A DNA stretch of 35,735 bases. Source: a virus. Shown here piece by piece: positions 4,408-26,754 of this stretch. A program made the translations under genes and the position numbers. The first letter of the stretch is position 1. Every line of letters begins with the position of its first letter. Under the pieces are notes generated by a model, which saw only the letters and a list, made by a program, of their open reading frames with translations, had not been told where the DNA came from and ran no database searches. Where the stretch lies: the IMG/VR virus record IMGVR_UViG_3300008448_011429, positions 1 to 35,735 of that record; one strand, written 5' to 3'.

Positions 4408-5052
4408 TTAAGAAAGATTATAATCTTGAGCAATTTGATCTTCTACGCCAAATGCTGGAAAATGTTGTGTGAAAAATGCATGTGCAGTTTTTGCTTCTTG
4501 ATATATTGGATGGTCAATACCATATCCTTCAACTTTTCCTTGAGGATGTTGCTTTAATTTTTTTATATGCATCAAAGCTTCATCACGAATTTTTTGGGGT
4601 ACTCCTCGTTGACCATTTTCTGTTTGTCCTGCCATCAAAGGATGTGATCCACTTTTCATTAACTTTTCAAACTCGTCAATTCCAACTGCCCCAAGATCGC
4701 CTTCTATATCACTAGCTTTAGCTGGAATATCATATTTTACTTCATTGAGTATTCTTGGAAATCCACCATAATTCATAATACCACCATGAACTTCACGGCC
4801 TTCCTTAATCATCTTCTTCTTTTCAGCCATCTTCTTCTTGATAGCCTTGTCCTTAGAACCAAAGTATTCATCCTTTGATGATTCTACTTCGCCATCTCCA
4901 TCATAATCCTTGTCGGCCATCTTCTCTTTCTTAGAACCCTTTTTAGAATCCTTTTTGTCCTTCTTCTTGTCCTTCATTTTGGCTTCAAGAATAGCAATTT
5001 GTTGTTGAAGTTGTTCGCAAAGGTTACGGTAGTAATTTTCTAAGTGTTTCAT
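4408..5052 (-). CDS. Probable virion protein with charged linker and Asp-rich Ca-loop-like motif
   Basis: This 214-aa protein has three parts. Residues 1-28 form an amphipathic helix, with YRNLCEQLQQQIAILEA at residues 8-24. Residues 29-85 are very Lys/Asp-rich and include the acidic loop DKDYDGDGEVESS followed by DEYFGSKDKAIKKKM, a segment common in T4-like cyanophage structural proteins and resembling dockerin or EF-hand calcium loops. The C-terminal 120 residues are mixed and unrecognised. The N-terminal helix closely matches the start of the 676-aa protein at 29285-31315, which suggests a shared docking or capsid-targeting signal. It follows the fibre gene and precedes a strong terminator. 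The function is inferred only. Confidence 0.65.
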   Translation of the reverse strand: MKHLENYYRNLCEQLQQQIAILEAKMKDKKKDKKDSKKGSKKEKMADKDYDGDGEVESSKDEYFGSKDKAIKKKMAEKKKMIKEGREVHGGIMNYGGFPRILNEVKYDIPAKASDIEGDLGAVGIDEFEKLMKSGSHPLMAGQTENGQRGVPQKIRDEALMHIKKLKQHPQGKVEGYGIDHPIYQEAKTAHAFFTQHFPAFGVEDQIAQDYNLS

Positions 5053-5057
5053 AATAT

Positions 5058-5065
5058 TATTTATA
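5058..5065 (-). promoter_or_regulatory. Perfect T4-type late promoter TATAAATA
   Basis: TATAAATA on the minus strand is identical to the T4 late consensus. It lies 5 nt before the ATG at 5052, in the gap between the two genes. Confidence 0.7.
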
Positions 5066-5069
5066 AATG

Positions 5070-7154
5070 TTAAAGAATTGTAATTCCTGTAAGAGTGTTA
5101 CCAACGGTTTCCACCCACATACCAACATTGCCAGAGGGACCGGGTAAAGTGATTCCTTGAACTAACAAAGTAATTCCGGGTTTTGCTGTAACTCTCCAAA
5201 TATAATTTCCGTTTATCTTTGGCGCTCCACTTGTTATTTGTTTAGCCAACCAACTTATACGACTTGTATCTGCAGTATCTGATGTATATCCACCCAAATT
5301 ATCATTTACATCTTTTAAAGCATTATCAAATAATGCAATATCTTGAACATAAGTTGTATATCCCTTAGCATAATAGTCTCTATCACTTAGTTTGTTTCCA
5401 TTTTCATATAGACTAAAAGAACTTGAATTCCAATATCCAATAGATTTAACGCCATGCAAACAAACATGTTTTATTAATTCATAATAGTAAGCGGAATTTC
5501 CACCAACATCAGATGTATATCCCATTATTGGTGAATAACCTTTGTCCATATCCGCAAAACCAACTGTTGGTGCTAGTGTTGAAACATTTTGAGCACCGCC
5601 ACCAGCATATCGTACTGAACCAATCCATGGTACCATGGGAACATTTGGTGAACCTCGTTTAGCACTACGAACTTCTTGCAGGGCTTTAGTAAAGCTTGTC
5701 CATGGTCCTTTTGCCAAAGTTATTCCAGTTGCTCCGGGAACAGCTAATACTAAGAATGTTGGATTTTCTGGTTTTACAAATACATTATTTGGAGAAACAG
5801 TTGGGTCTATTTGTCTAATTTCTCCATATAAAAATGGAGAGGAGGCATTTCCAACATATTTGGATTTAAATTGTGGATGACCATCTTGGTCAGGAGGACC
5901 CGCTGTTGGTCCACCATCTGAAGCCCAATAATCATAGTTGGCAACTAATGCTTTGGGATATTGTTGTAGAGTTGCATTTGCCCACATCTCATTCATTGCA
6001 ACAGATTGATGTTGTTGTGTTAAATTATTCCAAACAAGATATGCAACTTTATCTACTGATGGTCCTTGTATTTTCCCAGCAGTCACTCCATAAAAATTCA
6101 TATATGAACTCCATGAAGATAATCCTTTCCAAGATTGATTATATCTGGGATCACCAACATAACCAGAAATACCACCAGTTGCATCTTTAACACCCCATGA
6201 TACTGGATAGTTTGATTCGTTATCTCCTATAACATAATCTAATTGAATATTATTAGAATTAAAAATATTTAAAAGTTGATTATAAAACCCAGAGGCACCA
6301 CTAATACCAAAATCAGTCCATGGACTTGGATAACTGTTGGCTATATTTGAAGTTGTAAATGGATATGTATTTCCAAAATATTTAAAACTGGCTGCTCCAG
6401 TTGCAGTAATTTTATCACCAATAAAAGAAAACCAATCTTCTCTATTGAACAATGTTGGTTGGAAAGCTTTTCTTCCTGCTGGAAGATATGTCAATTGATT
6501 TACAACTCTGCTTATTTCGGAGTTTTGTGTCCAACCAGATGTATTATCGATTAACCAACCAGAAATTCTATAAAAATTAACAAATGGAGAAACATATTTT
6601 ATATTATTCAATGTTCCATAATTTAACCAAGCAGTTTGATTATAGTCATATAAAGGACCACTAGGACCAATGCAACCTCCACGAAGATCTCTAAAACCAA
6701 GACTTCTAGAATATGTGGTAGCCGTAGAACCTTCTTCAAGTTGTGCTCCCCAAAGATAAACTGTAACACCTGCGGTTTCCGATAATGCGTTGCTTCTACT
6801 TAAAATATAACAATCTACCGCTGTTTGAGTTGTACCCATAAAAAAAGAAGAAGAATATCGTATCCAGTCTGACCCCACAAAAGACATAGATGGTTGACGA
6901 TCAAATCCTGGAACAGAACCTGTTCTATCTATAAATCTAAATGAACCACCAGTAGCGCCCAGTGTTATATTTCTAAAATAAGAAAAAGTATATGTTATTC
7001 CTGGTTTTAAATCATATTGTCTTTGCATTATTGCTGCATAACAACCTCCAGCTGCAGTTGTTCCAAAAGCAAAAGCAGTAGTAGATCCATCGGGTGCTGT
7101 TATTCCTGTTGTTACAGATTTAATATTTTGATATGACCAGACGGGAGTAGGCAT
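5070..7154 (-). CDS. Tail fibre/spike protein with N-terminal jelly-roll and glycosidase-like barrel
   Basis: This is a 694-aa protein. Residues 1-150 look like a jelly-roll carbohydrate-binding module of phage fibres, with ITAPDGSTTAF near the start and VYLWGAQLEEGS near its end. Residues 180-600 resemble a TIM-barrel glycoside-hydrolase-like region, with a possible active-site strand YVIGDNE near residue 308. The C-terminal 60 residues (KINGNYIWRVTAKPG) match a beta module that ends both units of the 2137-aa protein. The protein therefore looks like a shorter relative of that repeat unit with its own N-terminal binding domain. The role would be binding or cutting of host surface glycans. 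No known fibre family can be named with certainty. An AGGA lies about 10 nt before the ATG. Confidence 0.7.
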   Translation of the reverse strand: MPTPVWSYQNIKSVTTGITAPDGSTTAFAFGTTAAGGCYAAIMQRQYDLKPGITYTFSYFRNITLGATGGSFRFIDRTGSVPGFDRQPSMSFVGSDWIRYSSSFFMGTTQTAVDCYILSRSNALSETAGVTVYLWGAQLEEGSTATTYSRSLGFRDLRGGCIGPSGPLYDYNQTAWLNYGTLNNIKYVSPFVNFYRISGWLIDNTSGWTQNSEISRVVNQLTYLPAGRKAFQPTLFNREDWFSFIGDKITATGAASFKYFGNTYPFTTSNIANSYPSPWTDFGISGASGFYNQLLNIFNSNNIQLDYVIGDNESNYPVSWGVKDATGGISGYVGDPRYNQSWKGLSSWSSYMNFYGVTAGKIQGPSVDKVAYLVWNNLTQQHQSVAMNEMWANATLQQYPKALVANYDYWASDGGPTAGPPDQDGHPQFKSKYVGNASSPFLYGEIRQIDPTVSPNNVFVKPENPTFLVLAVPGATGITLAKGPWTSFTKALQEVRSAKRGSPNVPMVPWIGSVRYAGGGAQNVSTLAPTVGFADMDKGYSPIMGYTSDVGGNSAYYYELIKHVCLHGVKSIGYWNSSSFSLYENGNKLSDRDYYAKGYTTYVQDIALFDNALKDVNDNLGGYTSDTADTSRISWLAKQITSGAPKINGNYIWRVTAKPGITLLVQGITLPGPSGNVGMWVETVGNTLTGITIL

Positions 7155-7168
7155 AGTAATATGTTCCT

Positions 7169-7176
7169 TATTTATT
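7169..7176 (-). promoter_or_regulatory. Late-type promoter AATAAATA
   Basis: AATAAATA overlaps the stop codon of the upstream lyase gene. The ATG at 7154 lies 14 nt further on, after an AGGA ribosome-binding site. This gene would have a short but real leader. Confidence 0.5.
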
Positions 7177-9991
7177 AAGTTCCAGGAATAGTATTCAAAT
7201 TTAAATCTTGGCTAAAGGAAATTAAATTTTTAGAATTATTGGATCTTGACCATTCATCTCCAGACCAAACCCATTCATTAGGCCACTGCCAAGCAAATGC
7301 ATTAATGTCAGGTCTTTGACGTACAATAATATTTGTAGTCATATTAAATGTGGTCCCAGCTAAGATAGAACCAACAGTACTTATATTGATCATTTTATGA
7401 TTTCTTACATTTCCAAGATTTGTACCTGTTTTAACTAATTGTGTAAAATTTTGAAAACCTGTTGATCCGACTGAAATATTTCTATCGCTAGTAATTCCAA
7501 TAGTAACATTATCCCAAGATACTTCCCAAGAACTTCCAGTTCCAGTTATTACCAGGCCAGTAGTATTTCCAGTATGCAATCTATATACTTCATGACCAGC
7601 AGTTACACCCGTGGTTTTATTAAAACTGTCTGTTACTTTAATTGATAATGGAGTAATGTAACTATTGCTAGTATTCCATGTAATATTTCTTGTGCAGTTA
7701 TTAATATTTGTATATGCGCTTGTAGTATTGATATCAATATTTCCACCTGATATACCAAGGCTATTTACTGTAATAGGTGAATTAGATGGCACAAATGATC
7801 CACCAATAGCACCGCCATCAATTTGCATTATATTGTGACCCTGAGCTGTTTGCATTTGCAATAATGTTCCATTACTTCCGGGAATCAATAAATTTTGATT
7901 ACTAGCATCATAATCAATACCACAATCCATTAAAATAACTTTATATCCTTGATATACACTAAAATGCCCTTGATCTCTGTGTGCGTGACCTTCTTTGACG
8001 CTAGAACCTTTTGCCCACAATGCATAATGTGGAGCAGCAGTATTACCAAACGTACCAGAAGTAATACCATCAAATGGATTTCCAATAACAGATGGTTTAT
8101 CTCTTCCTGTTCTCCAAATTACTTGTTGAATGTCTGGATAATATGAAAAATTTGGAATGGTTAATTCAGCTGTAACTCCTGAAATTGCATTTGCATATCT
8201 TATGCCAGTAGGATTGGATAAAGGATTTGGATATAAATATTTGCAATTTTTTAATGCCGCAGTATTTCCAGAAATTATTGCACTTTCTATAATAGATGGC
8301 CAATAATTTGTTATCGTGTAATTGGCTTGTTGGTTAGTTCTGCAGTCGGATGCATTTAATATATAATTGCCTGGAAGCTGACAATCAATTGCCCATTCCC
8401 AATAATTATTTGGAAATGGAAACATATTTAAATCAGATAATCTATTATCACCACTTGCCTTAGTATAATTAATCGAATTAACCATTTCAGCAACAGTTTG
8501 TTGTGCATATGCAAAACCTTCAGAGAATCCACCATCAGCATGCTCATATTTTAAAGCTTCTCCCAATAAAGCAATTGCTGCATTATAAGCTGGTAATAAA
8601 GTGGAGTCGCCCAAATAAAGACAAACATTTACCAATGATGCAGCTGGTTCAATCCATTGATTTGTATTGGGTTGACCTGAATTTGCAGGCATATTTGTTA
8701 ACTGCCCTTTAGTGTACCAACCAAGCTGGTATACCCAATTTTCTAATAATCCATATAACTCTTGACGTAATACACTTTTAATATTAGTTTCTAGACCCGA
8801 AGTCATTCCTCCAGTTCCAATTGCAGATAATATATTAATTACACCATTTATATTCCATGATGTTCCAAGATATTTTCCATCATTATAAGGATAAGAATTT
8901 TTTGGTGCAGCGATATCTGTATCTTGGCACCCATCTATTGTCCAACCAATTCTTTCAAATGGAATATGCGAACATTTTTCAACTAATAATTTATTATGAT
9001 AATCTAATGCAGCAGCCTGTGATGTTGTATTTCCAGGACTTATACCTCTTCCATTTTTTAATCTTTCTTCTACAGTTTTCCATCCAAATGCTGATTGTGC
9101 TGCAGTAGTTCTAGTATACTGCCCCATACCAGTATCTGAATTTGTCAACGCACTTAAAGTTTTTGGTCTTGGATCCTCACAACAGCATAAAGCACCATTA
9201 GGTGGTTTATTTATAGAATTTAAATAAGATGATGGAATATCTTCATATCTATAAGCTCGCGTATATTTTGTAGCATCAGTTTCGACAAAAGGTGTGTAAT
9301 TATTAGAATAGTTTTTTAATAGTTGATCTGTTGTAGCATCCGTTGATGTAAAAGTATTTGGATCTATTGGAATAAATGTTAAATTTCCAGTATATGCAGT
9401 CAAGCCTTTGATAAAATCTGTTCTTCTAGATATGATGATATCACAATAATCTTTTAGAGTTTGTGGATCACCGGCATATAATTTAAATAAATTAGATGCT
9501 TGAATTGTTTTTTTTACAGCAGCTTCTATGGCTTTGGCTCTTACATTACATGTTCTTGGCACTCCCAAAAAAGTAAATGATCCTGTTGTCCAAGCAGCAT
9601 TATCATTTAAAGGTAATACATACTTATAAGAAAAAGGATTTGGCATTGAATAAACAGAAATTTGTGTATCGCACCAAAGATCATTTAATATTTTTCTATT
9701 TAAATAAATAACAGAATCAGTAGCCCAGCAATTTCCAGTAGTGCTTTTAGTAGCTTCAGCCAAAATATCAAGAACTGGAAAATCTATGAAAGCTTTATTA
9801 ATTCCCGCATCCGTTGCTGCTTTTAAATTGTAAAACCCATAATGTGGATTTCCACTTACAATTGGTGTATAATAATACAGAGATGTATATCCGGTTAATG
9901 CATTACTTCCTGAATCCGCAAGTATATATTCTGTACCAGGATATGTTACAAATGTTGTAGAAATTTGTGAAGATTTTACTGTATCAGCCAT
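7175..9991 (-). CDS. Heparinase II/III-like polysaccharide lyase (tail depolymerase)
   Basis: This is a 938-aa protein. The middle third is helical and contains HADGGFSEGFAYA around residue 490, which matches the conserved DGG...EG..Y motif of the alpha-toroid of heparinase II/III and alginate lyase families. Around residue 668 comes GHAHRDQGHFSVYQGY followed by VILMDCGIDYD. This is the H-x-H-x-D-x-G-x-F signature of the heparinase II/III-like beta-sandwich. Such enzymes cleave uronic-acid-containing polysaccharides by beta-elimination. In a phage tail-gene cluster the natural role is degradation of host capsule or exopolysaccharide. The N-terminal 270 residues are unrecognised and may be the virion-attachment part. 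The exact substrate and lyase family cannot be told by eye. A CATAAATA element and a TAGGAA site precede the ATG. Confidence 0.8.
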   Translation of the reverse strand: MADTVKSSQISTTFVTYPGTEYILADSGSNALTGYTSLYYYTPIVSGNPHYGFYNLKAATDAGINKAFIDFPVLDILAEATKSTTGNCWATDSVIYLNRKILNDLWCDTQISVYSMPNPFSYKYVLPLNDNAAWTTGSFTFLGVPRTCNVRAKAIEAAVKKTIQASNLFKLYAGDPQTLKDYCDIIISRRTDFIKGLTAYTGNLTFIPIDPNTFTSTDATTDQLLKNYSNNYTPFVETDATKYTRAYRYEDIPSSYLNSINKPPNGALCCCEDPRPKTLSALTNSDTGMGQYTRTTAAQSAFGWKTVEERLKNGRGISPGNTTSQAAALDYHNKLLVEKCSHIPFERIGWTIDGCQDTDIAAPKNSYPYNDGKYLGTSWNINGVINILSAIGTGGMTSGLETNIKSVLRQELYGLLENWVYQLGWYTKGQLTNMPANSGQPNTNQWIEPAASLVNVCLYLGDSTLLPAYNAAIALLGEALKYEHADGGFSEGFAYAQQTVAEMVNSINYTKASGDNRLSDLNMFPFPNNYWEWAIDCQLPGNYILNASDCRTNQQANYTITNYWPSIIESAIISGNTAALKNCKYLYPNPLSNPTGIRYANAISGVTAELTIPNFSYYPDIQQVIWRTGRDKPSVIGNPFDGITSGTFGNTAAPHYALWAKGSSVKEGHAHRDQGHFSVYQGYKVILMDCGIDYDASNQNLLIPGSNGTLLQMQTAQGHNIMQIDGGAIGGSFVPSNSPITVNSLGISGGNIDINTTSAYTNINNCTRNITWNTSNSYITPLSIKVTDSFNKTTGVTAGHEVYRLHTGNTTGLVITGTGSSWEVSWDNVTIGITSDRNISVGSTGFQNFTQLVKTGTNLGNVRNHKMINISTVGSILAGTTFNMTTNIIVRQRPDINAFAWQWPNEWVWSGDEWSRSNNSKNLISFSQDLNLNTIPGT

Positions 9992-10007: not shown

Positions 10008-10015
10008 TATTTATG
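10008..10015 (-). promoter_or_regulatory. Late-type promoter CATAAATA
   Basis: CATAAATA on the minus strand lies at the end of the 2137-aa gene, 16 nt before the ATG at 9991. A TAGGAA ribosome-binding site lies between them. Confidence 0.5.
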
Positions 10016-13000
10016 ATAAACCCTTAATTGCTCCACATGAACCTTGGAATACTTGTTGTTGTATTCCGGCAGAAGTTTGCTTAGTTCCAGTATTTCCATC
10101 AGTATAAATTGGTATCGATGAAATATCTATTCTATCTGAATTTATTTTCATTAATGCAATTTTCTGTTGTTGTTGGAGCAACAATGAATTTTTCTTAATA
10201 GCATATGTCGGAGCACTATCTGCATTAGATTTATTTGCCCATGTCGATTGATTCAAGAATGAATAGGGAAGAATTGGGCATCCATAATGATATATTGAGG
10301 AATCTGATGAAATTTCTCTAGTATAATTCAAAACATCGTTCAAAAGAGTTATACCATTATAAGATGAATTACCAACATTTGGAGATTCATCAAGATTAAT
10401 ATAATCCGATATGAATGAATTATAAGCAAGACCAATTACTCTTGGATATGTATTACCAAAATAATATTTGTTTGTAGTATTTCCAGAAACTTTATTCAAC
10501 GATTGAGTTACAAGTTGCTGATATGTTGTTTTATCAATAGTAAAGTTTGGTCCAAATGCACTTGCAACGCAACTTCCAGGAATTTTATGTCCATACAGTA
10601 CTCTGTTTTGATCTAATAATGGAACATAAGTTCTTATTTCGCTTGAAGTCATATTTGGATTTATAACATTAGACGTAACTTCAAAAGGTAGTTGAGCTTG
10701 CGTCATTGACAATGGATTATAGATAAAAGCAGTTTGACCGGGAAGATTTAATACACCCAATCTTTCAGCTTCTGACACAGGGGGATTTTCGACAATTGGA
10801 ACTTCATAACGATCAGTAGTCCACCATATACCAAATTTATTATTTGGAATATTAATATAATCCGTAATTCCATTAATATTATAACTAGTCGTGATACCAC
10901 TTTGAGAGCCGCGAACAATAATTGGAGATTGTGTTGCGGGATGAGCAAATGTAATTCTCCAAAGATAATTACCATCTACTTTCTGTGCACCAGAAATAAG
11001 ATATGATCTTTCATCCATGTTCATTGGAGCAAGATATGTTGTTTCCCATACTGTACCACTTCCAATTGTTTGGCATTCACCAATAACGGTATTGATTTTT
11101 CTTGCAAGTTCCATTCTCATTGCACCACACACACCCAAACAGGTTAGACCGCCCGATTTCTGAGGAGATGTTTGAGCTTGTGTATATCTTCGACCACCAA
11201 AACATACTGATTCATTCATATAGACCAAAGGCGTACCATCAGATGATGTCATATCATAAGTTGCTGGATTCCAATAACTATATCTTCCCGTTTTATTCAA
11301 ATATTGATGGCGAATATTTTCATAATACATTGGTCCTGCTTCACCATATATAAATGTAAATCCATCTAATTGTGTTGCGGGAACAATTGTACTAGTGCGA
11401 TAACCAAAAGTTATGCCTTGAGGGACATAATATGTAGATGATAATACTGTGCTATTACTAGTTAAATTAAAATGATCATCGTTAGTCCATTTTTGATGTG
11501 CAATCCATGTATTAATTGGTTTTTGTATTCCATACCATTTTGATCCTGGTATTTTTGGATTATTAACTGGATCTTTTCTTTCATATACTGCTTTTGATAC
11601 ATTACATTTGGCAACTTGTCTACCCCATTTTACATCCATAAGCAATGTCATGAAGGCCATAGGATACCAGTTTGTCCAATAATTATTATAAATTGTTCCC
11701 GCAGGCAAATTAACTGCTGGAAATGGATTGCCACAAGGATCTAATTTATCACTTGGTATTCCTGTTCCGCCCGCCATATAAAATACCGTTTTTGCTCCAT
11801 AAGTCAATCCAAAATAAATATCAGGTCCATGAATTGGCAAATAGTTTGCTGGTCCGCTGACTTGTCCCGAAGAGAATCTATTAATATTGATTCCCCATAC
11901 TGGATTCAAATGCCATGAAACAAAATGTGGTGTTCTGTCAAAACTAACATTTATACTATTGGCTGCACAAGATCCAGATGCACCTGTTGGATCATACATA
12001 AAGAATCCAGTTTGACCCATTATTTCTCCACATGATGGGAATTGTTTTACTTGTGCCGCTGCATTTGAACCAAGCCATCCTGCAGGAAAAAACTTTTTAG
12101 CAAAATTAGTATTTGTTACAGGAGAATTTGAACCATATTTGGCTATAAGTGCAAAAGAATTCCAATACCAATTACCTATATTTTTACCATAAGTAACACC
12201 ATTAGTTGCAAGCCCATATGTATTACCTCTCCAATCTAAATTTCTATCAATAATTCTTGGAGAATTGCTGGCTGGATCCACTTCTTGTAAAATACCGCCA
12301 TAAGTATGAATTGATCCAACATCTCCTACTTGTTCGGTAAGAAGATTAACAACACTATCTAAATTATATGCATCATTATATGCATAATAATCAAATACAG
12401 GTTTACTTCTGTTTTTATTGGCAGGGTCTACTGTTGTAACATAAGGAACATAATCAGAATTTGTGCGGTTTAATGAATTTGATAAACGATTATTGTTTAC
12501 ATAAAAATTATTTGTATATGAAGGGTCTGTAAAATTAATTACTGCATTATTTAATTTATAATATCCATAGTCAGCAGATAAAGAGTTATCAGCACTAATA
12601 CCGTTGTATAATTTAAAATCATCAACAAAATCATTCCAATGCCCAGCATACCAATCTTGAATTGCTGATATATACTCCCATTTCAAAAATTGAAATGGTG
12701 ATCCACTCATAGCAATATTGCCATCGGCATTTGGGCTATTATACACAGCCGTCAATCCTTCAACATAACGATAATTTGATGGGTTTCCTGTAAAACCTTT
12801 AGTCAAAAGGTGCGAGCGCATTGAAGTAATTCCGCGAGCAATAAGACAATCAGGAGCAGCACAAGATCCATAAAAATTAGAATACCAGTTTGAACCTGTT
12901 ACACCATTATTGGGATATAGATATTTAAAATAAAAATTTGAATCACCATTAGCTGGAATATTTCCTATGTCATTAGCGAGAGAATTATAAATTTCATCAT

Positions 13001-16000
13001 CAAAATCTATATGGGCCATAGTAAAACCTTTTCCAGACAAATACCCATATATCGCTCTTAATTCTGTACGTAAAAAATTAACTTTACGTTTTAACCATGG
13101 ACTTTTAATAGTATTACCATTTGACATGGTAATAATCTCAGTATCTGGAAGTAGACTATTCGTTTGTGCTCTCCACCATCTGTCGGCAAACAAAACTCTA
13201 TACTTATTTGGTATCCAAGCATAATCTTGAGCAAATCTATCTAAACCGGCTTTTGAATAAAATCCGGTTGCACCAAATGTAAGACCAATATATCCTGTGG
13301 CTGAATTCCATGGCGCCACGGACATATCAATATCAACATCTGGATTATTATTAAATCCAACACCAGTCCAACCTTGATCTACACCTGCGCTAGGTGGAAA
13401 TATTCCTGCGTTCAAATTACTTTGACTTGGTCCATTTCTTCCTTTTATAACACTCATGACAGGCCACATATATGTCAAACCATTTTGACTTCCCCAACGT
13501 TCTGCCTGTCTCCACCAACCATATGGTGGAGACATAGTACAGAATAAATCAGGATTTATATAATCTTTTGGTATTACCTGTCTACCTTCAGCAGTTGTAG
13601 TTGCGTTAAACATAAACGCTGGATTTTCTACAAGATTTAATTTGTTAAATCTGAGTGCTTCTGGGATTGGAGGATTATCAACAATTGGATATTCCAGATT
13701 TCCCGTTGTCCACCACACACCAAATTTATTATTTGAATTGTTAATGTAATCAGTTATACCACTTACATTATATCCAGTTGTTATTCCTGAACATGAACCA
13801 CGAATTATAATTGGAGATGGATCTGTTGCTGGATTAGAAAAGGTAATCCTCCACAAGAAATTTCCATCAATTTTTTGAGCACCAGAAGCTAGGTAAGTTC
13901 TTTCATCCAAGTTTATTGGTGCCAGATTTACAGTCTCTTTAACCATTCCATTACCTATCGTATCACATTCACCAATAACTGTATTAACTTTTCTAACAAG
14001 TGCCATGGCCATAGCACCACAAATTCCATATGATGTCAATCCATTTGGTAATTGTGGATTTTGTGTATTTAATGTAAGCATTCTTCTCGGGAATGTTTGA
14101 TTTTCAGCAGGTACTTGACCTCCTACGGATGTTGTAACGCATGTATAGGAAAAAATACCCCAATAAGAATATCTTCCAACTTTATTCAAATATTGATGGC
14201 GAATATTTTCATAATACATTGGTCCAGCTTCACCAACAGGGAATGTAGTTCCTGTTGCCATAAAACTTTGTATATAATATCCAAAAGTTAATCCTGTTGG
14301 AATATAATAATTTGAATCTATTTTTGTTGTATCACCACGCCATTTTTGATTTGCTATCCAAATATTTATTGGTTTTTGAATTCCATTCCAAATAGAATTG
14401 GGAACTTGTTTGCTTGGATTATTTCTTTGATCCACTGCTCTAGTTACATTATTAACAGCAAATTGTCTTCCTATGGAAACATCCTGTAACAAGGCAATGA
14501 AGTGCATAGGATACCAGTTTGACCAATAATGATTATAAAGACTTCCTGCTGGCAAAGTATTTCCAGGATATGGATTCATACAAGCATCAAAATGACTAGC
14601 AAACCATGTTTTTCCGGTACCAAGAGCTTCTAAAGTTTTTTTTCCATAGGTTATACCAGTTATGACATCCGCAGTCAATACAGGAATATAATTTGCTGGA
14701 CCATAAGATGCAGTAGCAGGTATAAATGTAATTCCCCATACAGGATTCAAATGCCAAGATTGTAATTCTGGAGACCTATCAAAACCTGCTTTTATAGCAA
14801 TAGGAAAAGTAGAACCACTAGATCCCGTCAAATCGAATTGTCTGAACTGACAACTTCCTATTGTTTCCGCACATGTTGCACAATTTACTAATGCTGGTAA
14901 GCCTGTTGTTGTACCAAGATAATTGGCTGGTATCCATTTTTTGGCTGGTGTGTTTAGTGGCGAACCAAGTGAGGAGTATTGCTGCTCCATCATAAACCCA
15001 TATATCATTCCTATGCCATAGGTTTTTCCATTATTTGCAAAATTATATGAATTTCCTTTATAATCTAATGTCCTATCTAATACATATCCACTATTATAAA
15101 CACTTGGTCCTGGAAAGGCTCCATATGTATTAATACTAGAAATTGATCCTGGTATTCTATAACCTACATTACCAGGAAATGCGGGATTTGGATTCATATT
15201 ATCATAAGAATAATACCTCCGCATGTTTGCATCACTAATTTTAGTCGATGGAGATAATGGATAAGGAATAGCATCAGTGCTTCCGATATTAAACAAATTT
15301 GTTAAAAATGTTGAATTTGGAAGAGATGGATTTAATAATCTATAACCAGAAATACCTGCATTATTATAATAATATCCATAAGAACTATATAATATATTAT
15401 CTGCTAAATGATTATTATAAAGTTTAAAATCATTAAATAAATCTTGCCAGTGAGCTGCTGTCCAATCTTTTAATGCATAAGCAAATTCGTTTCCTAGCCA
15501 CATATCTCTTGAAGTTGTTGCAGCGATATTTCCTGAAACACCAGCAGAACCTTGCGCTGTAATACCATCAATAAATTTAAATGATGACGGATTGGTAGTC
15601 CATCCTCTTGTAAGAAGAAATGCCCTAAAAGAAGTTATACCTTCTGCTATTAATGAATCTGGTGCTGCTGATTGTCCTGAAAATGAAGCATACCAAGAAC
15701 TTCCAGTAGGTGAATTATTTGGATATACATATAAATTTTTAAAATTCACTCCATCATTTAAATCAGTAAAATTATAAACTTGATAAAATTCATCATCGTT
15801 TTCAATACCGCCACCAAAGAAAAAACCCGTTGATCCCGTATATGAACAAAAAGCTTTTAACTCGGCTCGTAAAAAAGACATTTTACGTTTTAGCCAATGA
15901 GATTTTTTTAATCCTGAAGTTAAAGTTATGTCTTCTGTTCCTGTTATACCAGTTGTAGAAGTTATAAATCTCCATATTCTAAATGGAGAGAATACTCTAT

Positions 16001-16424
16001 ATTTTTCTGGAATCCATCTATTTTCACTTACAATTCTTTGAGCGGTTCTAATATCCAAAAAACCAGTAGCACCAAATGTCAAGCCAATATATCCAGTTGA
16101 TGTGTTCCAAGGACCACATGCACCATTAATTTCAGGTTGAGTATATGGATCGTTTCCAATTCCAGGCCAATCTTGTGCTGTAGCAAAAACTGCTCCACTT
16201 GATTGTGGAAAAATACCATTATTTAAATCAACTAATCTAGGTCCACAGCTACCATATATGGTATAATGAACCATTGGCCACATATATGTCAAACCATGTT
16301 GGCTTCCCCAAGTCAATCCCTGATTCCAGTAACCATAAGGAGATTGGTCCATTACTCCATATAAAGGTGTTGCTACAGTAATACCTGATTGAGAAATGTT
16401 TGTATTCAGTAATATAGGATGCAT
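10011..16424 (-). CDS. Giant tail/adsorption protein with two tandem ~940-aa units
   Basis: At 2137 aa this is the largest gene in the window. Two homologous units follow each other. Both start near PYG(Y/W)W, contain GLTYMWP, TGYIGLTFGATGF and WLKRK..FLR.EL, an acid-rich strand (IENDDE near residue 208, IDFDDE near residue 1140), a YYENIRHQYLNK segment, and end in a beta module DGN(F/Y)LWRITF. The acid-rich strands and the overall pattern suggest glycosidase-like TIM barrels, but no family is certain. About 200 unrelated residues end the protein, finishing VFQGSCGAIKGLS. The 694-aa fibre gene is a shorter relative. The probable role is binding or depolymerising host surface polysaccharide. 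The ATG at 16424 is preceded by GAAAG. The frame is intact throughout. Confidence 0.7.
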   Translation of the reverse strand: MHPILLNTNISQSGITVATPLYGVMDQSPYGYWNQGLTWGSQHGLTYMWPMVHYTIYGSCGPRLVDLNNGIFPQSSGAVFATAQDWPGIGNDPYTQPEINGACGPWNTSTGYIGLTFGATGFLDIRTAQRIVSENRWIPEKYRVFSPFRIWRFITSTTGITGTEDITLTSGLKKSHWLKRKMSFLRAELKAFCSYTGSTGFFFGGGIENDDEFYQVYNFTDLNDGVNFKNLYVYPNNSPTGSSWYASFSGQSAAPDSLIAEGITSFRAFLLTRGWTTNPSSFKFIDGITAQGSAGVSGNIAATTSRDMWLGNEFAYALKDWTAAHWQDLFNDFKLYNNHLADNILYSSYGYYYNNAGISGYRLLNPSLPNSTFLTNLFNIGSTDAIPYPLSPSTKISDANMRRYYSYDNMNPNPAFPGNVGYRIPGSISSINTYGAFPGPSVYNSGYVLDRTLDYKGNSYNFANNGKTYGIGMIYGFMMEQQYSSLGSPLNTPAKKWIPANYLGTTTGLPALVNCATCAETIGSCQFRQFDLTGSSGSTFPIAIKAGFDRSPELQSWHLNPVWGITFIPATASYGPANYIPVLTADVITGITYGKKTLEALGTGKTWFASHFDACMNPYPGNTLPAGSLYNHYWSNWYPMHFIALLQDVSIGRQFAVNNVTRAVDQRNNPSKQVPNSIWNGIQKPINIWIANQKWRGDTTKIDSNYYIPTGLTFGYYIQSFMATGTTFPVGEAGPMYYENIRHQYLNKVGRYSYWGIFSYTCVTTSVGGQVPAENQTFPRRMLTLNTQNPQLPNGLTSYGICGAMAMALVRKVNTVIGECDTIGNGMVKETVNLAPINLDERTYLASGAQKIDGNFLWRITFSNPATDPSPIIIRGSCSGITTGYNVSGITDYINNSNNKFGVWWTTGNLEYPIVDNPPIPEALRFNKLNLVENPAFMFNATTTAEGRQVIPKDYINPDLFCTMSPPYGWWRQAERWGSQNGLTYMWPVMSVIKGRNGPSQSNLNAGIFPPSAGVDQGWTGVGFNNNPDVDIDMSVAPWNSATGYIGLTFGATGFYSKAGLDRFAQDYAWIPNKYRVLFADRWWRAQTNSLLPDTEIITMSNGNTIKSPWLKRKVNFLRTELRAIYGYLSGKGFTMAHIDFDDEIYNSLANDIGNIPANGDSNFYFKYLYPNNGVTGSNWYSNFYGSCAAPDCLIARGITSMRSHLLTKGFTGNPSNYRYVEGLTAVYNSPNADGNIAMSGSPFQFLKWEYISAIQDWYAGHWNDFVDDFKLYNGISADNSLSADYGYYKLNNAVINFTDPSYTNNFYVNNNRLSNSLNRTNSDYVPYVTTVDPANKNRSKPVFDYYAYNDAYNLDSVVNLLTEQVGDVGSIHTYGGILQEVDPASNSPRIIDRNLDWRGNTYGLATNGVTYGKNIGNWYWNSFALIAKYGSNSPVTNTNFAKKFFPAGWLGSNAAAQVKQFPSCGEIMGQTGFFMYDPTGASGSCAANSINVSFDRTPHFVSWHLNPVWGININRFSSGQVSGPANYLPIHGPDIYFGLTYGAKTVFYMAGGTGIPSDKLDPCGNPFPAVNLPAGTIYNNYWTNWYPMAFMTLLMDVKWGRQVAKCNVSKAVYERKDPVNNPKIPGSKWYGIQKPINTWIAHQKWTNDDHFNLTSNSTVLSSTYYVPQGITFGYRTSTIVPATQLDGFTFIYGEAGPMYYENIRHQYLNKTGRYSYWNPATYDMTSSDGTPLVYMNESVCFGGRRYTQAQTSPQKSGGLTCLGVCGAMRMELARKINTVIGECQTIGSGTVWETTYLAPMNMDERSYLISGAQKVDGNYLWRITFAHPATQSPIIVRGSQSGITTSYNINGITDYINIPNNKFGIWWTTDRYEVPIVENPPVSEAERLGVLNLPGQTAFIYNPLSMTQAQLPFEVTSNVINPNMTSSEIRTYVPLLDQNRVLYGHKIPGSCVASAFGPNFTIDKTTYQQLVTQSLNKVSGNTTNKYYFGNTYPRVIGLAYNSFISDYINLDESPNVGNSSYNGITLLNDVLNYTREISSDSSIYHYGCPILPYSFLNQSTWANKSNADSAPTYAIKKNSLLLQQQQKIALMKINSDRIDISSIPIYTDGNTGTKQTSAGIQQQVFQGSCGAIKGLS
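10715..13526 (-). repeat. Second unit of the tandem duplication within the 2137-aa gene
   Basis: This unit runs from the second PYGWW motif (PYG at 13526) to the second FIYN motif near 10715. Boundaries are approximate. Matching N-terminal landmarks lie 2814 nt (938 codons) from those of the first unit. Matching C-terminal landmarks lie 2892 nt apart, so this copy is about 26 codons longer. The copies are clearly diverged in DNA, so the duplication is old or has been diversified. Confidence 0.8.
13607..16340 (-). repeat. First unit of the tandem duplication within the 2137-aa gene
   Basis: This unit runs from PYGYW (PYG at 16340) to FMFN near 13607. It shares with the second unit the order of motifs GLTYMWP, GLTFGATGF, WLKRK, the acid-rich strand, YYENIRHQYLNK and DGNFLWRITF. 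The boundaries are estimated by eye. Confidence 0.8.
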
Positions 16425-19476: not shown

Positions 19477-19549
19477 CTAAATAAAAATGGTATTGTTGAT
19501 ATTGGATTGAAATGCGTACAAGACGGGGGTTCGAATCCCCCCGACTCCA

Positions 19550-19644
19550 TTAGCCTAAGTCAGAGAATCTGCAATCCTCTGAAAACGGCGAATCAAGTCC
19601 TCGTAGCAGCGGGGCATTTCCCGAAGTCCTAGGCTTCGGGTCAG
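19550..19644 (+). other. Intervening segment of the permuted tmRNA
   Basis: This segment of about 95 nt would be removed during maturation. It can fold into TCAGAG/CTCTGA (19560-19565 with 19577-19582), CCTCG/CGGGG (19599-19603 with 19610-19614) and a perfect 7-bp hairpin CCCGAAG/CTTCGGG (19620-19626 with 19634-19640). An alternative long-range pairing AGCCTA/TAGGCT (19552-19557 with 19630-19635) would bring the two mature ends together. Confidence 0.6.
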
Positions 19645-19739
19645 GGGGTCGAAAGGAATAGATTGGCGCAAAGTAATGAAGAAGGAGATGCCCGACACGG
19701 GTAACAAGTGTCGTAAATAAACAGTTGCAAAAAATAATT

Positions 19740-19766
19740 GCTAACCAATTAGCAATGGCTGCTTGA
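19740..19766 (+). other. tmRNA proteolysis-tag reading frame
   Basis: The resume codon GCT at 19740 is followed by codons for N-Q-L-A-M-A-A and a TGA at 19764. With the tRNA-borne alanine the tag would be AANQLAMAA, ending in the small hydrophobic residues recognised by ClpXP-type proteases. It starts AAN like most bacterial tags but is shorter. The stop codon sits in the 3-nt loop of a CTGCT/AGCAG hairpin, as the stop does in many tmRNAs. Confidence 0.78.
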
Positions 19767-22629: not shown

Positions 22630-22637
22630 TATTTATT
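22630..22637 (-). promoter_or_regulatory. Late-type promoter AATAAATA
   Basis: AATAAATA on the minus strand overlaps the stop of the upstream gene and lies 6 nt before the ATG at 22623. Confidence 0.55.
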
Positions 22638-23061
22638 TTTCTGTCTGAGACAACTTTCGATCTACTCTTGGATCCGTATTCAATTCTGAATACTTTACTT
22701 CTGGTAAATTTTTTATATTAAATTCTAAGAATACCAAAAAGGATTTCAAATAAGAATATAAACGCGGCTCAACTTTAAATATTAAAATTCTTGCAGTATT
22801 CTCTTCACCAAATACATTTCGTAAAATTATAATATGATTTATTATAAGTCTTTCACGTATTGATTTGAGAGTTTTGTGTTTATGAATTTTTTGAAGTAAT
22901 CTTTTAACGTATTTGATACGTTTTAGATCATCCATAAATTCTATTTTGCCACTGCACTCTTTGTTGAAATAACAAGTTTGACAGAATTCTAAAAAAGTAT
23001 CTTCTGTCAATGGTTTGTTATTGTCTAACATTAATGGTTCAGTGCTCGCATCCGCAATCAT
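22633..23061 (-). CDS. Small conserved T4-like phage protein with Cys pair
   Basis: This is a 142-aa protein. A Cys-containing segment, FCQTCYFNKEC (about residues 26-36), is followed by a helical region RIKYVKRLLQKI and the block RLIINHIIILRNVFGEE, typical of a small family found beside virion genes in T4-like cyanophages. Its function is unknown. It overlaps the previous gene by 23 nt. A start at the internal Met 11 (MLDNNKP) is possible, since no ribosome-binding site favours either. Confidence 0.65.
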   Translation of the reverse strand: MIADASTEPLMLDNNKPLTEDTFLEFCQTCYFNKECSGKIEFMDDLKRIKYVKRLLQKIHKHKTLKSIRERLIINHIIILRNVFGEENTARILIFKVEPRLYSYLKSFLVFLEFNIKNLPEVKYSELNTDPRVDRKLSQTEK

Positions 23062-23596
23062 AATTCATGCTATCTGTATTATACGAAGAAGTTTCAGTTG
23101 GCACAATAACAAGCATTACTTTTCTCAAATGATTTGGTTGCTTGACAACATTCATCGAAAGAGACAAAGAATGTCCTAGTTTTTCCTTGATTCCATCGCC
23201 TTGCTTGAATCCAGTCTTGTTGACATCATCATATGGGTTTTGGCCATAGACTCCAAGCTGAGGGCTTCCGTATTGAACGAGTTCAAATGTGGAAAGACCA
23301 TCTGATACACTGCGATTTGGTGCTGCAAAATCAAGACCAAAAATGTTTAATTTTTGTTTTACAACAGCAAGAATGCTGTCGGGATCAATGTAATCTTTGC
23401 ATGAGAAAGTATAAAGCATTGCATTGATTGCATCAATTTGTCTTGGAAGAGCTAGGTTGAATGTTCCCTTATCGGTTAAAGGTGATTCACCCATCTTTCC
23501 TTGGGGGTCACCGATATAGAGACCACCTCCAAAGGTATGTTCTCCTGCGTCTTCTACTAAAGTTTCGATTTTTTTGATGAGTGATTTAAATTTCAT
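23039..23596 (-). CDS. Conserved T4-like phage virion-type protein
   Basis: This 185-aa protein begins with a helix, MKFKSLIKKIETLVEDA, similar to the short basic starts of many internal or capsid-targeted proteins. It continues with FGGGLYIGDPQGKMGESPL, IDAINAMLYTFS and DPDSILAVVKQKLNIFGLDF, a pattern known from uncharacterised T4-like cyanophage proteins. It ends NYDCGCEH. A CTAAATA element followed by AAGGAAAG lies just upstream. No catalytic motif is seen. Confidence 0.65.
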   Translation of the reverse strand: MKFKSLIKKIETLVEDAGEHTFGGGLYIGDPQGKMGESPLTDKGTFNLALPRQIDAINAMLYTFSCKDYIDPDSILAVVKQKLNIFGLDFAAPNRSVSDGLSTFELVQYGSPQLGVYGQNPYDDVNKTGFKQGDGIKEKLGHSLSLSMNVVKQPNHLRKVMLVIVPTETSSYNTDSMNYDCGCEH

Positions 23597-23605
23597 GGCT
23601 TTCCT

Positions 23606-24376
23606 TTATTTAGTCCTATTTTTTATTAACCCAAACAAATCGGGATTGTAAACCTGTTCATTTAGGTTTTTAATCGTGTTATTTGTTATATTGTAAGCTA
23701 GTTCCACCCAAGGTTTTGGTTGTTTGGGTTTTATGGTTGGTTCTGTATCTTCTTTTAACATGGATGTTACCGATTGAGTACTCCAAGTTTTGCATGCCCA
23801 GTATCTGGCTTTCCATCTTGGTCCTGGATTGTCGCAATTATGTCTAGCTCTAAAATTTTTACGGCGTCCTGGATCATCTCTTTTGATTTCCATATTAGGA
23901 TCACCAAAATTTACTTTTACAACATTACCTTTATCATTCTTTACATAGACTTTGTACTTCTTTACATCACCCTTCATTATCTTGTTTAATTTTACTTTTC
24001 TCTTGGTGTCTTCGTAAATTTCAACCTGCGAACCATCTTCATCAAAATCTTCGTTCAAGTCTGTTCCAAGTATTCCAATAATAGAATTTGTTTCCATTAT
24101 TCTAATGCGTTCACATTTATTCTGATCAACAGTGTTTAATATTAATTTATCTTCATTTAATTCAATAGCATTAATATTAAAAATTTCACCAGATTCCATA
24201 ACCATTATGTCACCGGGAATTAGATCATTTGCTTGTATGGACTTGCAAGTCATAGGAATGACCATGTTTTTATTGTTTACAACAAAAGGAACTGAAGATT
24301 CATTCATCGTATATCTTGATGAATTATTTCTATCTAATATTTTTTTTGTTATAGATTTTAAATACTTTGAAATCAT
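23606..24376 (-). CDS. Virion-type protein with C-terminal FRARHNCDNPG domain
   Basis: This is a 256-aa protein. Residues 1-110 contain a small beta-barrel-like region (NDLIPGDIMVMESGEIFNI). Residues 140-205 hold a block that recurs in many T4-like phage head or core proteins: KKYKVYVKNDKGNVVKVNFG, PNMEIKRDDPGRRKNFRARH, then NCDNPGPRWKARYWACKTW. The two Cys residues (in RHNCDN and YWACKTW) are conserved in that family and may form a metal site or disulphide. The family is often fused to different N-terminal parts. The exact role is unknown. It overlaps the upstream gene by 4 nt. Confidence 0.7.
   Translation of the reverse strand: MISKYLKSITKKILDRNNSSRYTMNESSVPFVVNNKNMVIPMTCKSIQANDLIPGDIMVMESGEIFNINAIELNEDKLILNTVDQNKCERIRIMETNSIIGILGTDLNEDFDEDGSQVEIYEDTKRKVKLNKIMKGDVKKYKVYVKNDKGNVVKVNFGDPNMEIKRDDPGRRKNFRARHNCDNPGPRWKARYWACKTWSTQSVTSMLKEDTEPTIKPKQPKPWVELAYNITNNTIKNLNEQVYNPDLFGLIKNRTK
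23607..23614 (-). promoter_or_regulatory. Late-type promoter ACTAAATA
   Basis: ACTAAATA overlaps the end of the upstream gene. A strong AAGGAAAG ribosome-binding site lies between it and the ATG at 23596. Confidence 0.45.
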
Positions 24377-26748
24377 TTCCAGCTGCCTTTATTTTGAGTC
24401 TCACCTTTTTTGTGACCGTTGTCAGAGCGATTAGAGGATTTATCTCTGACACGTAAATTATTTATACCTTTGGAGCCACCGCTACGAAGGGGTTTCTTGT
24501 GGTCAATATCTTTGCCATCTCCCTTTTTAGCACGACCCTTCTTTTTCATTAGTTCTCGTGCTGCTGTTCTGGCTGCACGTTCTCTTCTTTGTTTGGGCTT
24601 ACCGTGGTAATTCCGATATTCTTTTTTATAATCTCGCTCGTATTCTTCAGCTACTAATTCATTAATTAACATTTCCAAGAGTTCTGGGTACTCTGTCATG
24701 CGGTTAACTGCATTGTGGTAGATTGATTGGAAATTAATCATGAATGGTTCATGACTTTCATTCAAGGAAGTTCTAGAGTCAAGAATAATTCCTGCTTCAC
24801 TATCTGTTATCAATTCGTTTCTTAATAAATTTGACAATACAAAATTGTTTGTAAGAGATTCAACCAATAGATCATTAATGAATATTGCTGCTTCTCCAAG
24901 AACTTCATTGGTGATATTTTCACCTTTTAATACTGGAATCTTGGTTGTCTTATTACCAACAGTGACGTAATTGTATTGAACAGCATTCAAATCTTTGGCA
25001 TTAAATCCTGGAAGTAAACTTGCATTCAATAAAAAGTCATTATTTTTTACCAAATAGTTTACCATGTATTGAATTGGATCTATTGATCCTTTCTTTACTA
25101 ACATACTCTCAAGAGATGGTTTCTTCTCTTCTACAGCTTCTACTACGGTAGTGAATTTCTTTAATGTTTCTGCTGCAGATGTATTATATGTTCCAATATT
25201 CGAAGATGTCATTACATCTTTAGCAGTGCTTACATCTAAAGTTGATTCCAATGAAACTGTATTAAAATAATCATCAGTCATTGGAATAATTCCATTGACT
25301 GTTATCAGATGGTTTGGGGCAAGTTTGGGATCTGTAATGTTATCCCCACGCAAAACAGTCTTTAAAAGATTTCCAATGACTTGTGTTTTTAAAGTATTCT
25401 TTTTGCCTTTCATCAATTCTTTGGCACTTTCTTCCCATGCTTTGCTGTAGGAAGATGCTGAGGCCAATGGATTGAGATTACCTTCTTCGTCAAAAACAGT
25501 TCCAGAGACTTTGCCATCCGGTCCCTTGATTTGCATTTGTTGAAGTTTCTTGAATAGTTTTGGATCTTCTTTGATCTGTCCAACCAATTCATCTGGAACA
25601 AGAATTTCAGAAAATGATTGTTGCCCTTGTTGCATTTTCTGGAATACTTGAGCAAGCTTGGGATCATTGCTGACTGTCTGAGGATTGCTCAATGCTTGGG
25701 TTAAAGCAGCTGCAACATATCCTTTGAAGTTTTTATTTGATTGATCAAATTGATTTGTGGATAGAGACATTTCTCCACCAGCAGCAACCTTGAATTTATA
25801 GTTACCACATTCCATGTCAGCCGCACCTTCTGCATTGACAGGCTTTCCTGTGGTTTCAACATTTGTCAAAAGATTTTGGAGACATTGATCTCCAATTTGA
25901 GAAAGAATCTTCCGTGCAGTGAAGAATGCCGATCTGGTAAACTCTCTTGCATCAGGAGCAAGAGCAAGATATGTTTGCATTTCTTGATCGCTGGATCCAA
26001 CTTTTAGTTTGGCCAAGAAAACAAGAGCATTCAAAACCTGTTGATTGTAGGGAGCATTGCTTGTATTGCTCAACCCATATTCAACTGTTATATTTTCATA
26101 CGATAATCTATCAAAGTCATTGTTAGCAGGTGGCTTGCGCATCATTTTAAAATACTCTGCGCGCAATTCAGGAGGCATACCAACAAGCTGCTCAGGTGAC
26201 ATTTGAGTCATAGCCTGCATCATTTGATCCTTAGACATTTTCTTTGCTTTTGTCTTTTCGGATCTTTCTTTTTCATCTTGATTTTTAGGTCTTGCTTCCT
26301 CTCTTTCTTTTTTCTCTTCAGAAGATTTCTTATTGCGATCACCCTTTTCGCCACCTTCTTTTTGTTTTACATCACCAAACAAAAGCTTGGAAGCTCTGGT
26401 TTGTTCAAAGTTTTGCTCTTGTGTGACTTTTTGCGCTTCTTCAATAGAAAGAGGAGCTTTATTTAATTTTTCATGTATTCCAGCATTAAATGAATCTTTA
26501 AAAATTAACTGGACGTTTCCCGATTTAGTTTTGACTAAAACAACGTCTTTAATAAGATCTTGCTTGGGTCTGCGTTCCCTTGGGGTCTCTTTAGCCCGTT
26601 CTATACGCTTACGAGCCGCGTCACGGGCTTTGGAGTCACCAGAAGCAGATTTGGCCCGTTCTTTCTTTTCAGCGGTTCCAGCCTGTTGTACTGCTTCATT
26701 TACCAGTACATTATTAAAAATTTGGGATAAAAGTGTTTTAAAGTTCAT
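24373..26748 (-). CDS. Large virion-type protein with C-terminal HNH-like domain
   Basis: This 791-aa protein is counted from the ATG at 26748; a TTG two codons upstream also lies in frame. It starts MNFKTLLSQIFNNVLVNEA, similar to the start of the 185-aa protein. Residues 20-190 are highly charged and probably disordered or coiled. The middle is mostly helical. The last 80 residues contain RRERAARTAARELMKKKG, GDGKDIDHKKPLRSGG and INNLRVRDKSSNRSDNGHKK, the pattern of a small HNH-like nuclease family (D-H and N-R-S) common in phages. An HNH tail on a structural protein is unusual. A CCTAAATA element lies 7 nt upstream of the ATG. Confidence 0.7.
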   Translation of the reverse strand: MNFKTLLSQIFNNVLVNEAVQQAGTAEKKERAKSASGDSKARDAARKRIERAKETPRERRPKQDLIKDVVLVKTKSGNVQLIFKDSFNAGIHEKLNKAPLSIEEAQKVTQEQNFEQTRASKLLFGDVKQKEGGEKGDRNKKSSEEKKEREEARPKNQDEKERSEKTKAKKMSKDQMMQAMTQMSPEQLVGMPPELRAEYFKMMRKPPANNDFDRLSYENITVEYGLSNTSNAPYNQQVLNALVFLAKLKVGSSDQEMQTYLALAPDAREFTRSAFFTARKILSQIGDQCLQNLLTNVETTGKPVNAEGAADMECGNYKFKVAAGGEMSLSTNQFDQSNKNFKGYVAAALTQALSNPQTVSNDPKLAQVFQKMQQGQQSFSEILVPDELVGQIKEDPKLFKKLQQMQIKGPDGKVSGTVFDEEGNLNPLASASSYSKAWEESAKELMKGKKNTLKTQVIGNLLKTVLRGDNITDPKLAPNHLITVNGIIPMTDDYFNTVSLESTLDVSTAKDVMTSSNIGTYNTSAAETLKKFTTVVEAVEEKKPSLESMLVKKGSIDPIQYMVNYLVKNNDFLLNASLLPGFNAKDLNAVQYNYVTVGNKTTKIPVLKGENITNEVLGEAAIFINDLLVESLTNNFVLSNLLRNELITDSEAGIILDSRTSLNESHEPFMINFQSIYHNAVNRMTEYPELLEMLINELVAEEYERDYKKEYRNYHGKPKQRRERAARTAARELMKKKGRAKKGDGKDIDHKKPLRSGGSKGINNLRVRDKSSNRSDNGHKKGETQNKGSWK

Positions 26749-26754
26749 CTCCAA

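Follow-up and report, generated by a model that had tools for sequence, protein, structure and literature searches.

A candidate two-headed, glycoside-hydrolase-like protein in an exchangeable gene cassette of a T4-like phage

Classical phage depolymerases and tailspikes are mostly trimeric beta-helices that carry a conserved N-terminal tail anchor. Two hydrolase domains in one chain have been described in the chitinase ChiW of Paenibacillus sp. FPU-7, where two GH18 domains that are 56% identical are credited to gene duplication (PMC5132251), and hypervariable host-recognition islands are known from T4-like pelagi- and cyanomyophages (PMC7029224). Here, a locus is described in the IMG/VR virus record IMGVR_UViG_3300008448_011429, of which the whole stretch of 35,735 nucleotides (nt), i.e., 35.7 kb, was analyzed (hereafter the window). 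The gene in question, P1, is an open reading frame (ORF) that starts with ATG and encodes 2137 amino acids (aa) on the minus strand, a strand not given by the initial annotation, and it lies consecutively with two further genes of that strand, P2 and P3. Our reading is that P1 is, probably, a glycoside-hydrolase-like protein with two heads and part of an exchangeable cassette of enzymes in a T4-like phage.

The duplication itself, which is direct, ancient, and far above chance level, was confirmed by comparing one half of P1 with the other using BLASTP, which aligned aa 29-960 with aa 967-1925 in a single collinear match of 449 identities in 975 columns (46%), at 742 bits and E = 0. The offset between the copies is 938 aa (2814 nt) at the motif PYGYW (aa 29 and 967), and reaches approximately 965 aa (2895 nt) by the end of the unit, which is ~955 aa long, while aa 1912-2137, the single-copy module CT, fall outside the repeat. 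Given this, the proposal of the initial annotation, a tandem duplication of a ~940-aa unit with landmarks spaced at 2814-2892 nt, is borne out, and the self-diagonal at ~940 aa was recovered in the half-versus-half comparison. Its repeated acid-rich landmark corresponds to a D-D-E motif in each unit, and its repeated terminal beta module to GAQKxDGNxLWRITF..., which is present in both.

Even at identities as low as 28%, the 17 units all retain the D-D-E motif, and a second motif, YENIRH, is conserved in each of them at its E, R, and H, along with other charged residues. The ratios of nonsynonymous to synonymous substitution rates (dN/dS) were 0.43 for unit 1 (U1) and 0.32 for unit 2 (U2) between the window and its relative L003 (loci of IMG/VR contigs are given L numbers), and 0.29 and 0.28, respectively, between L001 and L004, which shows purifying selection on both units, with the motif intact. 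It might be supposed that one head is decaying and that only unit 2 matters, given that the window and L001 are 72% identical in unit 2 and only 48% identical in unit 1, yet the pair is kept in six of the six distinct tandem loci (the window, L001, L003, L004, L005, and L015), unit 1 retains all of the invariant charged residues under purifying selection, and its low identity is explained by unit replacement, since U1 of L001/L004 joins U2 of L005 in the maximum-likelihood tree (support 97/97). A decaying head is, then, very improbable.

Units of this type are encoded on 11 IMG/VR contigs, in several arrangements. A single ORF of 3079-3145 aa contains U1+U2+CT+P2 in L001/L002 and L004, where P1 is fused to the next gene, a form with U1+U2 alone (~1966-2007 aa) is found in L003, L005, and L015, and single-unit genes with a different N-terminal domain occur in L006, L007/L008 (two adjacent genes of this kind), L019, and L020. 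The tree places the 12 tandem units together (100/100) and apart from the single-unit genes, which implies that the duplication is older than these phages, and the branching order of the single-unit genes is unsure, given their long branches. A simple two-clade history, with all of the U1 sequences opposed to all of the U2 sequences, was ruled out by this tree, in which the U1 sequences do not form one group. The grouping of U1 of L001/L004 with U2 of L005 thus reflects units that were replaced or that moved position. The initial annotation proposed two sites free to diverge in specificity; the tree and alignments show, at the level of sequence, units that are both exchanged and diverging between phages. 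No cultured-phage relatives were found of P1 (50,697 phage records), P3, the single units, or the ORFs with half fn3 domains described below, nor any bacterial relatives of the units or P3 in 84,980 genomes; the pattern scan for the units covered bacterial and archaeal genomes and gave none.

The exchange also extends to whole modules. The DNA of the window and L003 is 93.6-97.6% identical as far as window position 10696, i.e., the end of unit 2, where an unrelated 1.9 kb in L003 stands in for CT+P2+P3, and the identity resumes, at 95.7%, from window position 5064. Similarly, L015 and L004 are 88% identical until approximately ten codons into the gene, differ in the ORF itself, and are 82% identical again across its last 45 codons and onward. 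The CT+P2 combination is found in L001 and L004, and also in L041, where it follows a propeller; this 1674-aa phage protein (L041 3634-8658) consists of an RCC1-type beta-propeller and CT+P2. Related phages swap whole modules in addition to residues. P2 may possibly have a lyase-type function, given a match to the heparinase II/III family PF07940 (Hepar_II_III_C) that stayed below threshold (13.8 bits against a cut-off of 24) and was found in one of four relatives.

The fold of the units was approached through P3, a distant paralogue. In profile-profile comparisons, the C-terminal block of the units (the last ~290 residues) matched the P3 family with a probability of 97.3 (E 2e-11), and a second collinear block (probability 92.8, E 4e-7; hhalign) runs up to the unit D-D-E and brings it into register with D-N-E in P3. 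The AlphaFold model of the P3 barrel reached a predicted local distance difference test (pLDDT) score of 72.9 and a predicted template modeling (pTM) score of 0.79, and nearly all of its Foldseek matches in the PDB were TIM-barrel glycoside hydrolases or their relatives, including isoamylase (the best, E 2.6e-4), beta-amylase, a SusG-like GH13, alpha-agarase, GH31, PslG, and GH27. There is, thus, moderate support for a predicted (beta/alpha)8 fold of P3, within the TIM-barrel glycoside hydrolase superfamily. Catalytic acids usually sit just beyond the end of a strand, and E313 of P3 (model position 164), which is invariant in 13 relatives, lies shortly after the model strand 158-162. A sugar-related module, similar to CBM_4_9, is adjacent in the cassette.

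Several points weigh against this reading. The direct model of unit 2 (U2+CT) has a pLDDT of 43.6 and no significant PDB fold match, so that the unit fold is deduced through P3 and not seen, and the two blocks of homology to P3 together cover only ~320 of the 956 unit residues. The Foldseek scores of P3 are modest (TM ~0.3, with probabilities up to 0.92), and its family has no clear second catalytic carboxylate, which would allow for an inactive barrel that only binds. Searches with single units and profiles gave no match in Pfam, PHROGs, or the PDB sequences, which places the units in no glycoside hydrolase (GH) family; no named GH family was matched by P3 either in these libraries. The GH18 motif D-x-x-D-x-D-x-E was not found, the units having D-D-E and P3 having D-x(4)-D-x-E, with the second D of the motif missing, and no beta-helix or known tailspike family was matched by the units in PHROGs or Pfam, the P3 model being alpha/beta.

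Alternatively, the units might be catalytically dead, lectin-like barrels, with P1 a bivalent receptor-binding protein, duplicated for avidity, in which the D-D-E motif is structural. It is common for hydrolase folds to be put to use in binding, and the units and P3 have only one clearly invariant strand-end acid motif in common. All three acids of D-D-E are, however, invariant in 17 units down to an identity of 28%, and the invariance of E313 shortly after its strand is what would be expected of an active site, and we hold dead barrels to be rather unlikely. Of the “two catalytic-like units” of the initial annotation, then, the two units stand, and their catalytic-like nature is supported indirectly, by the collinear homology to P3, the GH-barrel-like model of the latter, and the D-D-E motif of all 17 units.

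Under the hydrolase reading, each unit would be built as a TIM-barrel hydrolase that contains a long insertion and carries a beta sandwich at its C-terminal end, and the likely catalytic acid would be the D-D-E glutamate. The units may bind and cut the surface or capsular polysaccharide of the host, with a different linkage or strain variant as the target of each head, and P3 could be a third hydrolase head, placed behind a carbohydrate-binding module (CBM)-like domain. The same coat would be the target of P2, which is perhaps a lyase, and of the CBM-like domain of P3, opening the way to the host, and the swapping of heads and modules may let the phage keep up with host coats as they change and adjust its host range. 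Overall, the locus suggests a changeable multi-enzyme tool against the sugar coat of the host.

On sequence grounds, the window is a T4-like environmental phage. Its longest relative, the 135-kb contig of L001, encodes a T4-type terminase whose best matches are to cyanophage gp17 (48.5%). The genomic context makes the role of P1 as an adsorption protein, as first annotated, plausible. Small genes come after P3, and their relatives also follow the array in other phages. P1 might otherwise be an enzyme that is set free at lysis or carried inside the phage head, to clear the matrix or act on the host after entry rather than in adsorption. Small genes whose N-termini resemble those of internal proteins (MxxFKxxLxEA type) surround the cassette and, in the 135-kb relative (G001), the array is placed away from the collagen-like, tail-fibre-like genes; no known virion-attachment domain, such as one for the tail, was recognized in P1. 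On the other hand, strong module exchange within conserved flanks is typical of host-recognition genes, and the CBM-like and fn3 modules of the family suit particle-bound enzymes. Release at lysis or packaging in the head is considered improbable, and adsorption is retained as a plausible role of P1.

Internal-protein-like N-termini (MNFKTLLSQ..LVNEA, MKFKSLIKKIETLVE), recognized by eye only, are found at window positions 22633-26754 and 4408-5052 and in many ORFs of the relatives, and they recall the T4 capsid-targeting sequences that are cut by gp21. Elsewhere in the window, positions 19489-19766 of the plus strand encode a permuted transfer-messenger RNA (tmRNA; Rfam RF04321, 72.5 bits, gathering threshold 47) with the tag ANQLAMAA; ARAGORN found the same tmRNA in L003 and L005, and one with ANELAMAA in L006, near tRNA-Tyr and tRNA-Gly.

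The most surprising feature of the locus is the pattern of beta domains that appear to be split between genes. In L029 and L032, the sequence of the last 46 aa of P2 (C46) runs on into the start of P3 as an uninterrupted CBM-like domain, whereas the window, L015, and L004 have the two parts on separate ORFs. C46 is present where the CBM-like part of P3 follows (the window, L004, L015, L029, and L032) and absent from L001 and L041, where it does not; L003 and L005 have a diverged tail with a similar start (RPxINAFA), yet this precedes a P3 without the CBM-like domain. A translational bypass or programmed frameshift between P2 and P3 was rejected as the main explanation, because the length and frame of the gap vary among phages (20, 20, and 34 nt) while the AAGGA stretch is kept, and a sequencing error was ruled out by the presence of the same break in three independent contigs.

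A similar division is seen in five related phages, whose fn3 domains are broken between neighbouring ORFs near the C/C' loop, the ORFs either overlapping at stop and start or lying a few bases apart. Strong matches to the N-half (E below 1e-14) lie at the ends of ORFs, two of them in tandem in the L032 scaffold, and strong matches to the C-half (E below 1e-20) lie at their starts. When joined, the halves from L037, L032, and L038 reached 33.1, 27.9, and 26.0 bits against PF00041 (cut-off 25), with a fourth pair at 21.8 bits, below the cut-off, and the single halves tested at 20.9 or less. If the N-halves are regarded as sockets and the C-halves as plugs, their numbers in L032 are unequal (two N-halves and three C-half ORFs), and the plug ORF 8114 of this locus adjoins no socket ORF, which speaks against a merely broken gene. 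Single-sequence scans with the fn3 halves returned only contigs that were already known, and nothing relevant on split fn3 domains in phage genes was found in the literature. It is possible, although we put it forward as a tentative proposal and lean somewhat against it, that such split domains complete their fold in trans, as socket and plug, and so stitch the enzyme chains into one multi-enzyme complex, a cellulosome-like phage assembly of which the two-headed hydrolase would be one exchangeable part.

Two further cases of divided genes were observed. In L003 (15892-17304) and L005 (16003-17415), a TAATG overlap marks the start of the P3-like ORF, and its first barrel strand (YVSP) may be left at the C-terminus of the unit protein encoded upstream; joining the parts gained only ~2.5 bits, with one of the eight shuffles listed reaching +1.7, and the case is left as a hint. 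In L040 (5015-7618), a P3 relative is spread over several overlapping ORFs (215, 163, 155, and 64 aa), which may represent a decayed gene or assembly errors.

Table 1. Features of the locus, with positions in the window except in the last row.
Feature	Position	Strand	Evidence or remark
P1 (U1+U2+CT)	10011..16424	-	ORF and translation
Unit 1 (U1), aa 1-955	13560..16424	-	46% identity to unit 2 over 975 columns; unit alignment
Unit 2 (U2), aa 956-1911	10692..13559	-	similarity to U1; 72% identical to L001 unit 2
CT, 226-aa C-terminal module, aa 1912-2137, single copy	10011..10691	-	travels with P2
D-D-E of unit 1, aa 210-212, candidate catalytic acid motif	15789..15797	-	identical in 17/17 units; paired with P3 D-N-E by hhalign
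D-D-E of unit 2, aa 1142-1144	12993..13001	-	17/17 units; hhalign against P3
YENIRH of unit 1, invariant E739, R742, H743	14196..14213	-	pairs with P3 YYELIKH
YENIRH of unit 2, invariant E1702, R1705, H1706	11307..11324	-	pairs with P3 YYELIKH
P2, 938 aa	7175..9991	-	fused to P1 in L001/L002/L004
C46, last 46 aa of P2	7175..7315	-	same sequence directly before P3 CBM-like domain, in one ORF, in L029 and L032; fused to unit 2 in L015
P2 stop and 20-nt gap to P3 (TAATAAATAAGGAACATATTACT), with AAGGA ribosome-site-like stretch	7155..7177	-	break inside CBM-like domain
P3, 694 aa: CBM-like N-terminal part (~aa 1-150), GH-like barrel and beta sandwich (~aa 170-694)	5070..7154	-	distant paralogue of units
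P3 D-N-E, aa 311-313	6216..6224	-	E313 invariant in 13 relatives
Replaced block CT+P2+P3, window versus L003	5065..10695		one breakpoint at end of unit 2
Split-fn3 loci	L032 4931-11216; L037/L059; L038 4743-10237; L039/L061; L040 4428-5935

Taken together, the comparisons point to a new hydrolase-like family, an old and real duplication, and a module-swapping phage locus, to which a function may be assigned by homology. A large hydrolase-like family would thereby be added that has no match in Pfam, PHROGs, the PDB sequences, or the 50,697 phage records, and its units and neighbours are exchanged as modules between near-identical phages. The window and L003 form a natural pair, with a different enzyme array on a 94-98% identical background, which offers a handle on the relation between module content and host range. 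If true, the stitching of split domains would be a self-assembling, noncovalent route to multi-enzyme particles, of use in protein engineering.

Of the described systems, ChiW resembles P1 in having two homologous TIM-barrel hydrolase domains per chain (the barrel being a prediction in P1), beta-sandwich modules beside the barrels, and an acidic motif (PMC5132251). The domains of ChiW are 56% identical and the units of P1, with their D-D-E, are 46% identical, and ChiW, a chitinase from the surface of a bacterial cell, belongs to a known family, whereas the P1 unit is phage-encoded, much longer, without a family match, and exchanged between phages. With the phage depolymerases and tailspikes (reviewed in PMC5380687 and PMC6872550), P1 shares a presumed coat-opening role and a modular, recombining nature that would determine host range, and it differs from the classical tailspikes in its tandem, TIM-barrel-like units, with no anchor recognized. 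The host-recognition clusters resemble the P1 locus in being hypervariable islands of T4-like genomes, with carbohydrate-binding modules and conserved flanks, although the islands described contain tail fibres and glycosyltransferases (PMC7029224), and the P1 locus contains an array of hydrolase-like paralogues. Finally, the P3 family of the IMG/VR phages L029-L040 has a homologous barrel, a C-terminal beta module, and the same type of flanking genes, and differs from P1 in having only one barrel, preceded by a CBM-like domain, and, in several members, in the ORF-split fn3 domains, which are not found in the window.

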